Positions 29,656-34,388 of a DNA stretch of 48,237 nucleotides are shown piece after piece. This DNA is from an uncultured beta proteobacterium. GTDB taxonomy: Bacteria; Pseudomonadota; Gammaproteobacteria; Burkholderiales; Burkholderiaceae. The position numbers were made by a program, and so were the translations under genes. Below the pieces are notes generated by a model. It ran no database searches, had not been told where the DNA came from, and was given only the letters and a program-made list of their open reading frames with translations. Each line of letters starts with the position of its first letter. Within the stretch, counting starts at the first letter, position 1. Where the stretch lies: contig CAIMZP010000088.1 of assembly GCA_903846025.1 (NCBI GenBank), forward strand, positions 1 to 48,237, written 5' to 3'.

Positions 29656-30789
29656 TTATGCGCAGGCAAATTCAATCACATCTAATGCTTGAATTAACCT
29701 ACTTTTTTGAGTTCCGAAGTTAAGCCTAACAAAATCAGATTGTCCAAACTGACTTCCGGGTGAGGTCGCCAATCCAGCATCTAATAATAATTGGTACGGA
29801 TTTGGATGATTGAGATTTTTACAATCAATCCAGGCTAGATAGCTTCCTTCCATTTTTCCAATGCTTAATTTATCAATGGATTTAATTCGGTTTTGAATTA
29901 AATCGCGATTCACTCTTAAGTACTTGATCAGCTCTTGCCGCCATGGCTCACCCTTGGTTATGGCTGCCATAGTTGCAGTGTATGCAAATAAAGAAGGGGG
30001 GGCTATAGTTTCATGAAGCCCCACCCCAATGGCTTTTCGAAGCGCTGGATTTTCTGCAACTGCCCACGCAAGACCTACCCCAGGGAAATTAAATGTTTTA
30101 TTCAAAGACATCAAGGTAACTGTTCTTTTAGAAATTTCCTCGCTGAGGCTTGCTAATGGAATATGTTTTTTCTCTTCATCTAAAACTAAGCCGGCATGGA
30201 TTTCATCTGAGCATATCCATAAATTATTTTCGACACAACAATTTCCAAATTCCCTTAATTCACTTTCAGTAAAAACAGTTGAGCCAGGATTTTGAGGGTT
30301 GCAGAACAACGCTAAGGTGGTGTTTTGAGTGATGAGGTCTGGTAATGAATCGGTCGGGAAAACCCAGCGCCCATCATGTAACTGCAAGGGCATTTCATGA
30401 AATTCTCGCTCTGAACTACTGCAGGCAAGTCTTAAATGATGGTAGACGGGGTTGGGGACTAGGATGTTTTCATCTGAGTTTGTGAGTTGCTTTACAGCTG
30501 TATAAAGGCCTGACACAACGCTGGGTAAAATAACGATCCAGCTTGGATCGATCTTCCATTGATATTGTTCCAATAGGTATTGGGCAATCATGCGATTTAA
30601 TTGAAGCGGGCTATGGGTGTAGCCATAAACCCCATTTTGAACCCTATTATTGAGGGCCTCAATCACACAAGGCGGCGACTGGAAGTCCATATCAGCCACC
30701 CACAAAGGGATTGCTTTTTCCTTGTCAAACGCATCCCAGCGAATCGAATCAGTTTCTAGCCTACTGGTGGGTAAATCAAAGTCAAACAT
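29656..30789 (-). CDS. MalY/PatB-type PLP-dependent aminotransferase / C-S lyase (candidate EgtE-like)
   Basis: WVADMDFQSPPCVIEALNNRVQNGVYGYTHSP, LFCNPQNPGSTVFTESEL, SDEIHAGLVL, MSLNKTFNFPGVGLA. Confidence 0.88.
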   Translation of the reverse strand: MFDFDLPTSRLETDSIRWDAFDKEKAIPLWVADMDFQSPPCVIEALNNRVQNGVYGYTHSPLQLNRMIAQYLLEQYQWKIDPSWIVILPSVVSGLYTAVKQLTNSDENILVPNPVYHHLRLACSSSEREFHEMPLQLHDGRWVFPTDSLPDLITQNTTLALFCNPQNPGSTVFTESELREFGNCCVENNLWICSDEIHAGLVLDEEKKHIPLASLSEEISKRTVTLMSLNKTFNFPGVGLAWAVAENPALRKAIGVGLHETIAPPSLFAYTATMAAITKGEPWRQELIKYLRVNRDLIQNRIKSIDKLSIGKMEGSYLAWIDCKNLNHPNPYQLLLDAGLATSPGSQFGQSDFVRLNFGTQKSRLIQALDVIEFACA

Positions 30790-32017
30790 GATCTTTAGCG
30801 AGTCTTAAACCAGTCATTTGCCAACGCGTATGGGTTGGGAAAAAATTACGATAGGTTGCCCTTGAATGTCCGTCTGTAGTAAAGGCGGAGCTACCTTTAA
30901 GAACCATCTGGTTAACCATAAATTTGCCGTTATATTCTCCAGCTGCACCACTCCAGGGCTGATATCGGGGGTATGGACTGTAGTTGCTGCTAGTCCACTG
31001 CCAGACACGACCAAACAGTTCCTCAATTAAAGTGGGCTCTGCTTTAGCAATAGCTTCCCATTCAAATTCAGTGGGTAAACGAGCCCCAGAAAATTCTTTC
31101 AAATTATGATCGGCCCAACGGGCAAAGGCATCTGCCTCAAAATAGCTAATGTTAGAGACTGGAGCCATAGGGTCAAGTGGCGCATTGCCACAAAGGGAGT
31201 ATCGGTAATATTGCCGTTCCTCATTGATATTCCAGTACAAAGGGGTAGTAATATTTTCAGCCTGAGCCCAGGACCAGCCTTCATCTAACCACCATTGCGC
31301 TTGCCGGTAACCTGCATCTTCTATAAAAAGTAGCCACTGCGCATTAGTTACTAATTGACTCCCAATGTAATGGGTTTGATTAAAGGCAGTATGCGCTGGT
31401 CCTTCGTTATCAAAGTGAAATCCTTCATCATCAATGCCAATGTTAACTAATCCTGAGATACCCTCGATCCATTTAAACTCTTTAGGTGATGATATTTTTA
31501 AAGCTTGATCGATGTAGGCGGGAAGTAGTGGGTTAGTAAAAAATAAATGCGTAATGTCAGTCAATAAGAGCTCTTGGTGTTGCTGCTCATGATTGATGCC
31601 TAATTGAATGAGCCATTGCAGCTCTGGGGAAGAATTTTTTTTAATAAGGTCAGTGACTCTACTTTCAACATTCTTACGCCATTGAAAAATTTCCTCAAGG
31701 GAAGGCCTTGTTAATAATCCTCGCTGGTGTCGCGGATGTTTATCTCCAACCCCGTTGTAGTAACTATTAAATAAAACTGCAAACTGCGGGTTCCAAAAAT
31801 GAAAATCGTGCTCAAAAGATTTGAGAACCATAACCTCATAAAACCAGGTGACATGTGCCAAATGCCATTTAGCGGGACTAGCGTCATCCATGGATTGCGC
31901 TTGGCAATCCTCCGGGCTTAGATTTCTCGCTAAGTCAGTAGAGTACTTTCTGGAGTAATTAAATTGCTCCAAGAGGATATCGCTTTTAATTAGGTTGTCT
32001 GAGGGTTTACTGAGCAT
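30782..32017 (-). CDS. egtB: ergothioneine biosynthesis protein EgtB (sulfoxide synthase)
   Basis: DinB-type PAKWHLAHVTWFYE and GINHEQQHQELLLTDI (HX3HXE iron site); FGE-sulfatase C-terminus ARLPTEFEWEAIAKAE, GRVWQWTSSNYSPYPRYQPW, YRNFFPTHTRWQMTGLRLA. Confidence 0.92.
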   Translation of the reverse strand: MLSKPSDNLIKSDILLEQFNYSRKYSTDLARNLSPEDCQAQSMDDASPAKWHLAHVTWFYEVMVLKSFEHDFHFWNPQFAVLFNSYYNGVGDKHPRHQRGLLTRPSLEEIFQWRKNVESRVTDLIKKNSSPELQWLIQLGINHEQQHQELLLTDITHLFFTNPLLPAYIDQALKISSPKEFKWIEGISGLVNIGIDDEGFHFDNEGPAHTAFNQTHYIGSQLVTNAQWLLFIEDAGYRQAQWWLDEGWSWAQAENITTPLYWNINEERQYYRYSLCGNAPLDPMAPVSNISYFEADAFARWADHNLKEFSGARLPTEFEWEAIAKAEPTLIEELFGRVWQWTSSNYSPYPRYQPWSGAAGEYNGKFMVNQMVLKGSSAFTTDGHSRATYRNFFPTHTRWQMTGLRLAKDHV

Positions 32018-32957
32018 AGATCAAGGCAAAGTATTGTTTTGGATCTGTCCAGATTTGGTTCGATTCAAAACCAGCACTTTTTAGTAATTGTTTAATGGAC
32101 TCAACAGTGTACTTATGAGAGTTTTCAGTATGAATAAGGTCTCCCTCCTTAAGGGATATACTATTTCCCGGCCATGAAACAGTAACGTCTTCAAGTGCTT
32201 GAAGGTAAAGCTCCACTCTATTTTCCTGGTGATTTATTTTCACTAAGTGCTGAAATTGCTTCACGTTGAAATTGGAGCCTAGGTGAGCATTAACAGATCG
32301 CAGAATATTCAAATTGAAGGCTGCAGTCACCTTAAGTGGATCGTCATATGCCTCCCTTAAGATGAAATCTTCCTTCATTAAATCAACCCCAATTAATAAG
32401 CCACCATCGCCAGTCTGGTTTTTAATTTCAGTTAGGAGCTTACGGGCTTCTGATGTGAGAAAGTTGCCAATGCTTGAGCCGGGGTAAAAAAAAGTTCTTC
32501 GAGACATTGGTATTGAATCCAAAACTTCTAGCTGCCTAGAAAAATCCATGCCAATGCCCCGCATTTTTATTTTCGGATACTTTCCCTGAAGTTTATTGAG
32601 CGCCTCTTCAAGGTATTCAACTGAAAAGTCGATTGCTACATATGTGGCAGGTTTGATTAAATTAAAAAGGGCTTCTGCCTTTTGACAATTACCAGCCCCC
32701 AAATCAATCAAGATTCCATTCGCACCAATGACATTGGAAATTTCATTTGCGTAATGATCGAGAATATTTTTCTCAGTATTACTTGGATAGTATTCCGGAA
32801 GCAATGTGATTGCTGTAAAAAGGTGCGACCCGAGAGGGTCGTATAAAAATTTCGGGGAAATATAAGCCGGCCTAGCAAGCAACCCGATTTCAATTTCAGA
32901 AATAAAACTTTGCTGCTGAAGCGGTTTAATCTCTTCTGAGATAACTGATGTTTGCAT
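32007..32957 (-). CDS. egtD: L-histidine N(alpha)-methyltransferase EgtD
   Basis: KFLYDPLGSHLFTAITLLPEYYPSNTEKNIL, GILIDLGAGNCQKAEAL, FFYPGSSIGNF, DLMKEDFILREAYDDPLKVTAAFNLNIL. Confidence 0.92.
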   Translation of the reverse strand: MQTSVISEEIKPLQQQSFISEIEIGLLARPAYISPKFLYDPLGSHLFTAITLLPEYYPSNTEKNILDHYANEISNVIGANGILIDLGAGNCQKAEALFNLIKPATYVAIDFSVEYLEEALNKLQGKYPKIKMRGIGMDFSRQLEVLDSIPMSRRTFFYPGSSIGNFLTSEARKLLTEIKNQTGDGGLLIGVDLMKEDFILREAYDDPLKVTAAFNLNILRSVNAHLGSNFNVKQFQHLVKINHQENRVELYLQALEDVTVSWPGNSISLKEGDLIHTENSHKYTVESIKQLLKSAGFESNQIWTDPKQYFALIYAQ

Positions 32958-33051
32958 GAATTTTTATGCCAATGATTTCTTCAAAGAGGATATTCTTTAT
33001 ACAACAGAAAAACTTAATTTGCTTTATGCTCATTGCACTCAAGGAGATCAA

Positions 33052-33336
33052 ATGAAAGCAATCTGGAATAATGAAGTTTTAGCCAATTCAGGTGAGACTA
33101 TTGTGGTGGAAGGTAATCATTACTTTCCATCTTCTAGCTTAAATATGCAATTTTTTAAGAAATCCGATAAAACTACCGTATGCCCTTGGAAAGGGACCGC
33201 TAGTTATTACGATGTTGAAGTTAGCGGCAAAGTAAATAAAGATGCCGCCTGGTTCTATTCGGAGCCAAAATCAGCAGCAAAGAACATCGCAGGATATATT
33301 GCCTTTTGGAAGGGTGTTGACGTTCGCGAAAGCTAG
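33052..33336 (+). CDS. DUF427 domain protein
   Basis: ATG at 33052 preceded by AAGGAGAT (MKAIWNNEVLANSGETIVVEGNHYFP...VCPWKGTASYYDVEV...AAWFYSEP); the longer ORF from 32956 overlaps the egtD start. Confidence 0.87.
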   Translation: MKAIWNNEVLANSGETIVVEGNHYFPSSSLNMQFFKKSDKTTVCPWKGTASYYDVEVSGKVNKDAAWFYSEPKSAAKNIAGYIAFWKGVDVRES

Positions 33337-33446: not shown

Positions 33447-34388
33447 TCAAATCTCGTAGGTATCCGACTCGCTTGACATCGCCTGCTCAACAATTTTGCG
33501 CGTAAGCGTGGGTGAGAAGAGTTCAATGAAGGTATACACAAACGACCGTAAGTAGGCGCCTTGCTTGACCCCCAAATGCGTCACGTTATTGCCAAATAAG
33601 TGACCCACGGGGATCACTTTCAGATTTCGATCTTTATCAGCGTCATATGCAAGCCCTGCAACAATGCCAACACCCATGCCAGCCTCCACGTAAGTTTTTA
33701 TGACATCTGCATCAATCGCTTCCAAAATAATATCCGGACTCAAATTACGCTGTGCAAAGGCGGCATCAATCTTGCTACGCCCTGCAAATGCTTTGTCATA
33801 AGTGATGAGGGGATATTTGGCAATTTCTTCTAGGGTAATAGTTGTCTGATTGAGCAAGGGGTGGCTTAGAGGAACCATGATTACGTGTTGCCATTGATAG
33901 CCTGGTAGCGCTAAGACTCCAGTAGTGTTAGCAATACCCTCCGTTGCAATCGCAATATCTGCGCGATCGTGAATCAGCAATTCTGAAATTTGCCCAGGGT
34001 TTCCCTGTTGAATGCTGACGCGTACCTTTGGAAAGCGTTTCGTAAATTCTGTCAGCACTTTAGGTAAGGCATAGCGTGCTTGTGTATGTGTAGTAGCAAT
34101 AACAAAGTTTCCTTGATCTTGACTTGCAAAATCTTTCCCAACACGTCGGAGAGTTTCCACTTCATCCAAAATACGCTCAACTGAAACCAAAATACGTTTG
34201 CCGGGTTCGGTTAAGGATCTAATGCGCTTGCCATGGCGACGGAAAATCTCCACACCCAGCTCATCCTCAAGTTCGATAATTGCTTTGGAAACTCCGGGTT
34301 GGGAGGTAAAAAGCGCCTTGGCTGCTGAAGTGAGATTGAAGTTCTGCCTGACGGCTTCACGGACAAAACGAAATTGGTGCAGGTTCAT
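33447..34388 (-). CDS. CysB/Cbl family LysR-type regulator
   Basis: MNLHQFRFVREAVRQNFNLTSAAKALFTSQPGVSKAIIELEDELGVEIFRRHGKRI, typical CysB-family N-terminus. Confidence 0.92.
   Translation of the reverse strand: MNLHQFRFVREAVRQNFNLTSAAKALFTSQPGVSKAIIELEDELGVEIFRRHGKRIRSLTEPGKRILVSVERILDEVETLRRVGKDFASQDQGNFVIATTHTQARYALPKVLTEFTKRFPKVRVSIQQGNPGQISELLIHDRADIAIATEGIANTTGVLALPGYQWQHVIMVPLSHPLLNQTTITLEEIAKYPLITYDKAFAGRSKIDAAFAQRNLSPDIILEAIDADVIKTYVEAGMGVGIVAGLAYDADKDRNLKVIPVGHLFGNNVTHLGVKQGAYLRSFVYTFIELFSPTLTRKIVEQAMSSESDTYEI

Follow-up and report, generated by a model that had tools for sequence, protein, structure and literature searches.

Many Proteobacteria encode egtB and egtD without an adjoining lyase gene, so that the enzyme catalyzing the final step of ergothioneine biosynthesis is hard to assign. 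In the 48,237-nucleotide contig analyzed here (hereafter, the window), egtD and egtB are followed by a gene for a PLP-dependent C-S lyase, raising the question of whether these three genes suffice for ergothioneine production, and which sulfur donor and which final enzyme such a route would use.

Organization and genomic setting of the locus

The three genes lie in tandem on the minus strand. The first, egtD (32007..32957), encodes a 316 aa L-histidine N-alpha-methyltransferase; egtB (30782..32017) encodes a 411 aa sulfoxide synthase of the predicted type II (cysteine-type); and the patB/ovoB-like gene (29656..30789) encodes a 377 aa PLP C-S beta-lyase, the proposed EgtE-equivalent. Direct reading of the sequence reproduced the three open reading frames of the first-pass annotation with the same spans, along with both of its overlaps: 11 nt between the egtD stop and the egtB start (ATGCTCAGTAA, 32007..32017, minus strand), and 8 nt between the egtB stop and the patB start (ATGTTTGA, 30782..30789, minus strand). 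The genes are probably co-transcribed. A 94-bp intergenic gap (32958..33051) separates the divergent starts of egtD and a DUF427 gene and, judging by position, presumably contains both promoters; a promoter and terminator scan yielded no promoter signal over shuffled sequences and no sigma-70 match above chance in this gap. The adjoining gene for a CysB-family regulator (33447-34388 of the window, minus strand) was not seen in the egt neighborhoods of relatives and was accordingly ruled out as a component of the system, its position being probably coincidental.

The egtD-egtB-patB trio recurs in 23 of the 31 EgtB-encoding genomes of the genus, so the arrangement is not due to chance, and an identical gene order was detected in an Alcaligenaceae MAG (L014). 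The block from PatB to DUF427 falls within the part of the window with the lowest G+C (41.1% vs 45.5% for the rest of the window). The genes flanking this block were not seen next to egt genes in the 13-kb loci of relatives (L002, L004, L006, and L008), which indicates that the site of the block varies from species to species, plausibly as a result of horizontal movement. The host assembly (G000; 1.97 Mb in 162 contigs) is 91.8% complete. Because the egt proteins of named Polynucleobacter isolates (L004 and L006) are identical to those of loci from the same genus (L088 and L093), we take the genus to be Polynucleobacter and the host to be a freshwater Polynucleobacter-like bacterium.

A predicted minimal pathway with an OvoB-type lyase

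The identities of EgtD and EgtB, originally recognized from motifs, hold against profiles, both proteins exceeding the curated NCBIfam cut-offs: EgtD scores 340 bits with TIGR03438 (cut-off 290.9) and also matches PF10017 (E 4.5e-93), and EgtB, which combines an N-terminal DinB_2 domain with a C-terminal FGE-sulfatase domain, scores 474 bits with TIGR03440 (cut-off 360).

The third protein matches TIGR04350 (C_S_lyase_PatB) with 364 bits (cut-off 340). Its nearest PDB sequence is 5z0q (276 bits; the next scores 226), and in a Foldseek search with its AlphaFold model (pLDDT 92), ranks 1 to 6 are all taken by 5z0q, "Crystal Structure of OvoB" (TM 0.96, 36-37% identity). Residues K231 and R355 occupy invariant alignment columns and, by analogy with fold-type I lyases, would be the PLP lysine and the binder of the substrate carboxylate, respectively. 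Both the profile and the modeled fold thus place the lyase in the OvoB/PatB branch and outside the EgtE family TIGR04343, so that its initial description as a candidate EgtE is apt as a functional label and incorrect as a family assignment. Unlike OvoB, which is encoded with OvoA, this lyase has EgtB as its partner; a search of the host genome with the EgtB model, which finds OvoA in relatives, recovered only the operon EgtB among the strong matches listed. OvoB is described as a broad-specificity beta-lyase (PMC12631010), and E. tasmaniensis offers a precedent: its OvoB acts modestly on the sulfoxide of the ergothioneine pathway, and a PLP beta-lyase of this species completed ergothioneine synthesis in vitro (PMC9103826). 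The product of EgtE is a sulfenic acid that is reduced to ergothioneine by a thiol (DTT in vitro) (PMC4493562).

We consider it quite probable that the operon encodes a complete minimal pathway of aerobic ergothioneine biosynthesis that couples a type II EgtB to a recruited OvoB-type lyase, and infer the substrate of each enzyme and the final product as follows. EgtD would convert histidine to hercynine by trimethylation; the type II EgtB would join hercynine to cysteine with O2, forming hercynylcysteine sulfoxide, and because cysteine is attached directly, EgtA and EgtC would be dispensable. The OvoB-type PLP beta-lyase would then cleave off what is left of the cysteine as pyruvate and ammonia, and cellular thiols would reduce the resulting sulfenic acid of hercynine to ergothioneine.

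Distribution and phylogeny of the lyase

The principal competing explanation is that EgtD and EgtB make the sulfoxide from cysteine, whereas PatB serves chiefly as a general beta-lyase of cysteine S-conjugates or cystathionine and either releases ergothioneine only incidentally or leaves that step to another PLP enzyme. The breadth of PatB-family enzymes favors this possibility, and it can be weighed against the distribution of the lyase in the genus. Among the 186 genomes sampled, EgtB is present in 31, OvoA in 3, and SenA-like proteins, classed by score and length except for one checked cluster, in 54 (two genomes encode both EgtB and SenA). EgtD was identified in 84 genomes, 30 with EgtB and 52 with SenA only. 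PatB-type lyases, counted at about 40% identity or more, are encoded in all 31 EgtB-encoding genomes and all 3 OvoA-encoding genomes, compared to 10 of the 52 SenA-only genomes and 8 of the 100 others (Fisher p 2e-14 for EgtB-encoding vs SenA-only genomes, with related genomes counted as independent). The rarity of the lyase in SenA-only genomes is to be expected given that the SenA product fragments without any lyase (PMC10903977).

In the phylogenetic tree of the lyases, the egt-operon copies, with some stand-alone members among them, form one clade (100/100 support), distinct from a GST-linked and an OvoA-linked clade. The general-lyase explanation draws on the GST-linked relatives and on stand-alone copies from genomes in which EgtB was not detected, as well as on the 8 of the 31 EgtB-encoding genomes that manage without an operon copy; the sole PatB-type protein in these eight is 44-51% identical and is encoded in a GST gene cluster. 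Against it, the egtB-overlapping junction is kept in relatives; the lyase is missing from 134 of the 186 genomes and hence is not a housekeeping enzyme; its presence correlates with EgtB and OvoA, and not with SenA; and the egt-linked copies comprise a single clade. A mainly general role for the operon lyase therefore appears rather improbable, and the proposal that the PatB-like protein is the lyase of this pathway is computationally well supported by the operon overlap, the OvoB-like modeled fold, and co-occurrence with EgtB. In the EgtB tree, where support is uneven, the loci without a lyase are scattered in several places, pointing to repeated loss of the lyase gene or to transfers that left it behind.

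The GST-linked paralog was also considered as proof of partnership with EgtB and rejected, since sister genomes lacking EgtB carry it as well. Clusters in which a gene for a PatB-family lyase accompanies GST-like genes, often along with a hydrolase gene and a 3-hydroxyacyl-CoA dehydrogenase-like gene, recur in species with larger genomes (L156-L168) and look like a system of S-conjugate metabolism.

Several further features of the genus were recorded. EgtB and SenA-like proteins are nearly mutually exclusive (e.g., L149, L215, and L216), occurring together only in G161 and G042, where the single EgtD would then supply both pathways. The checked SenA-like cluster, annotated with NCBIfam, consists of senB, egtD, selD, and a SenA gene, the product of which scores 400 bits, slightly below the cut-off of 420; in the checked OvoA cluster, OvoA scores above the cut-offs and adjoins a PatB-family lyase. 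In three species (L142, L143, and L144), ovoA is grouped with genes for an OvoB-like lyase and an HxlR-type regulator, and an ADP-ribosylglycohydrolase-like gene lies close by. In G051, where neither EgtB nor SenA was found, egtD (C1:145985-146821) contains two internal stop codons and is apparently a decaying remnant.

Outside the genus, the EgtB cut-off is exceeded in 147 of the 300 sampled genomes of the family (a few members of the genus among them), and among these 300, lyases with more than 40% identity were found in the genus only. Similarly, 25 of the 36 EgtB-encoding genomes reached via named loci lack a lyase match at 1e-20. Thus, most EgtB-encoding Burkholderiaceae have no comparable PatB, in general the pathway does not depend on a lyase of this type, and the possibility that PatB is a universal substitute for EgtE was rejected. 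A search within 6 kb of egtB elsewhere, in which PatB and three further PLP proteins from the host served as probes and other PLP classes may have escaped, returned essentially no other PLP enzyme, with one weak partial match. These patterns are best read as the recruitment, specific to this lineage, of an OvoB-type lyase by a type II ergothioneine operon; the recruit probably comes from the same branch as the lyases that partner OvoA in sister species.

The sulfur donor of EgtB

The best PDB matches of EgtB are the structures of Chloracidobacterium (Cth) EgtB (6qki/8qf6/6o6l, 345 bits), compared to 126 bits for the mycobacterial 4x8b. The alignment maps the Fe-binding His facial triad to H52, H143, and H147, with Q146 and N391 also located; the diagnostic tandem Tyr93-Tyr94 of CthEgtB is retained as Y86-Y87, and Arg103/Arg106 correspond to R96/R99, Asp52 to D45, and Ala420 to T397, all with a chain-vs-published numbering offset of three deduced from Gln156, Asn414, and Phe415 cited in PMC9103826. 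In a review (PMC10903977), Tyr93-Tyr94 of CthEgtB are equated with Tyr377, and CthEgtB is described as preferring cysteine. In the EgtB tree rooted on SenA and OvoA, overlong branches prevent placement of the mycobacterial type, so the typing relies on scores and residues, and these indicate that EgtB belongs to the type II, cysteine-preferring kind.

The first-pass annotation saw no egtA or egtC in the vicinity, and this extends to the whole host assembly, at its 91.8% completeness. The genome-wide search gave no match for EgtA; a single match to the EgtC model (25 bits, cut-off 219), a 610-aa GlmS-like protein (L145); and, as the best match to EgtE (TIGR04343), a cysteine-desulfurase-like protein with 65 bits (cut-off 400) that is not the operon lyase. 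GshA is encoded in the host genome (647 bits). The product of GshA is gamma-Glu-Cys; the absence of EgtA is therefore weak evidence, and of the two absences adduced for direct use of cysteine, that of EgtC retains its force and that of EgtA does not. The argument stands on the missing EgtC together with the type II active site, which jointly lend good computational support to the earlier suggestion that EgtB would use cysteine directly. A type II EgtB from Methylobacterium functions without EgtC, and ergothioneine synthesis by type II EgtB was already known to proceed without EgtA and EgtC (reviewed in PMC11993508 and PMC13209761), making the operon less novel than it first appeared.

Alternatively, EgtB could accept gamma-glutamylcysteine made by GshA, an unrelated peptidase or gamma-glutamyltransferase stripping the glutamate ahead of the lyase. 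Besides GshA, this possibility has in its favor the activity of Cth EgtB on both cysteine and gamma-Glu-Cys, reported in PMC9103826, and the retention of R96 and R99 at the Arg positions reported to bind gamma-Glu-Cys in Cth; however, type II EgtB is described as cysteine-preferring in PMC10903977 and PMC11993508, and EgtC was not found in the genome, so we regard this route as very unlikely. That the operon makes something else, such as selenoneine or a 5-thiohistidine, is most improbable of all: sister species do have SenA and OvoA, which are of the same superfamily, but EgtB, far over its own cut-off, scores only 309 bits with the SenA model (below 420) and 107 bits with the OvoA model (below 400).

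A DUF427 gene associated with EgtB

The gene divergent from egtD (33052..33336, plus strand) encodes a 94 aa DUF427 protein (PF04248, E 7.7e-33). Its ATG at 33052 is preceded by a ribosome-binding site (AAGGAGATCAA); an alternative, longer reading frame that begins at 32956 would run into the start of egtD. DUF427 adopts a beta-tent fold common to MsrB and the cereblon CULT domain, and has no known role (PMC4287342). The gene is present in 30 genomes of the genus, 29 of the 31 with EgtB and 1 of the 155 others, an association that we treat only as a lead because the genomes share ancestry and do not count as independent, and because the gene is in most cases physically linked to egtD. The single exceptional genome contains an egtD-DUF427 contig that stops at the end of egtD, before egtB. 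In the P. meluiroseus group, the DUF427 gene is present but unlinked to egt genes and, where read, adjoins genes for two lipoproteins, one of the OmpA family and one of the "secreted repeat" type. Another DUF427 protein, with two domains and encoded at other loci, is likewise confined to these genomes, occurring in 10 of 32 (those with EgtB plus the one with the egtD-DUF427 contig) vs 0 of the 154 others.

DUF427-bearing loci include L042, L069, L012, L014, and L208-L211. Two Planctomycetota encode DUF427 beside egtBD, with 57-65% identity to the window copy, and two Bradyrhizobium copies near egt genes show only about 30% identity. In the alignment, the egt-linked subfamily has invariant Cys44, Lys47, Trp67, and several Tyr. 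Among the best ten of 78 literature matches, none deals with both DUF427 and ergothioneine. The gene is a candidate ergothioneine-associated gene, and we tentatively raise the possibility, itself doubtful, that this subfamily plays an unrecognized part in making or using ergothioneine; it might, for example, bind ergothioneine or assist in reducing the sulfenic acid left by the lyase.

Genes for quaternary-amine transporters in which OpuAC is fused to the permease occur near egt and sen clusters (L149:6001-7515, L012:4666-6216, L042:8366-10942, and L069:8151-9692). These fusions, with a domain order reversed relative to EgtUBC, are candidate transporters of ergothioneine or selenoneine.

Relationship to known thiol-histidine pathways

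The operon represents a variant, and thereby an extension, of the known type II ergothioneine route, in which an OvoB-type lyase would take the place of EgtE, and not a new pathway. With the three-enzyme route of type II EgtB (Chloracidobacterium EgtB; EgtB, EgtD, and EgtE of Methylobacterium), it shares the type II EgtB, the predicted direct use of cysteine, and the lack of EgtA and EgtC; the difference is that the lyase here is of the OvoB/PatB type and encoded in the operon, whereas egtE of Methylobacterium is located elsewhere in the genome (PMC4621440). The mycobacterial EgtABCDE pathway has in common with it the chemistry of EgtD and EgtB and a last PLP C-S lyase acting on the sulfoxide, but the host of the operon lacks homologs of EgtA, EgtC, and EgtE, and its EgtB is of a different type. 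The OvoA/OvoB pathway of ovothiol synthesis provides the closest relative of the operon lyase, and three species of the genus encode an OvoA-linked relative next to ovoA; here, however, the synthase is EgtB and hercynine comes from EgtD, so that C2 rather than C5 chemistry is expected. Fungal Egt1/Egt2 likewise use cysteine directly together with a PLP lyase, but in the operon EgtD and EgtB are separate proteins and the lyase is of the PatB family.

The association with EgtB provides a functional lead for DUF427, a domain without an assigned role. Because the lyase gene overlaps egtB in this operon, the assignment of the last step becomes directly testable. A single genus encompasses ergothioneine, ovothiol, and selenoneine systems and allows a clean test of one lyase branch with two synthases of differing regiochemistry.
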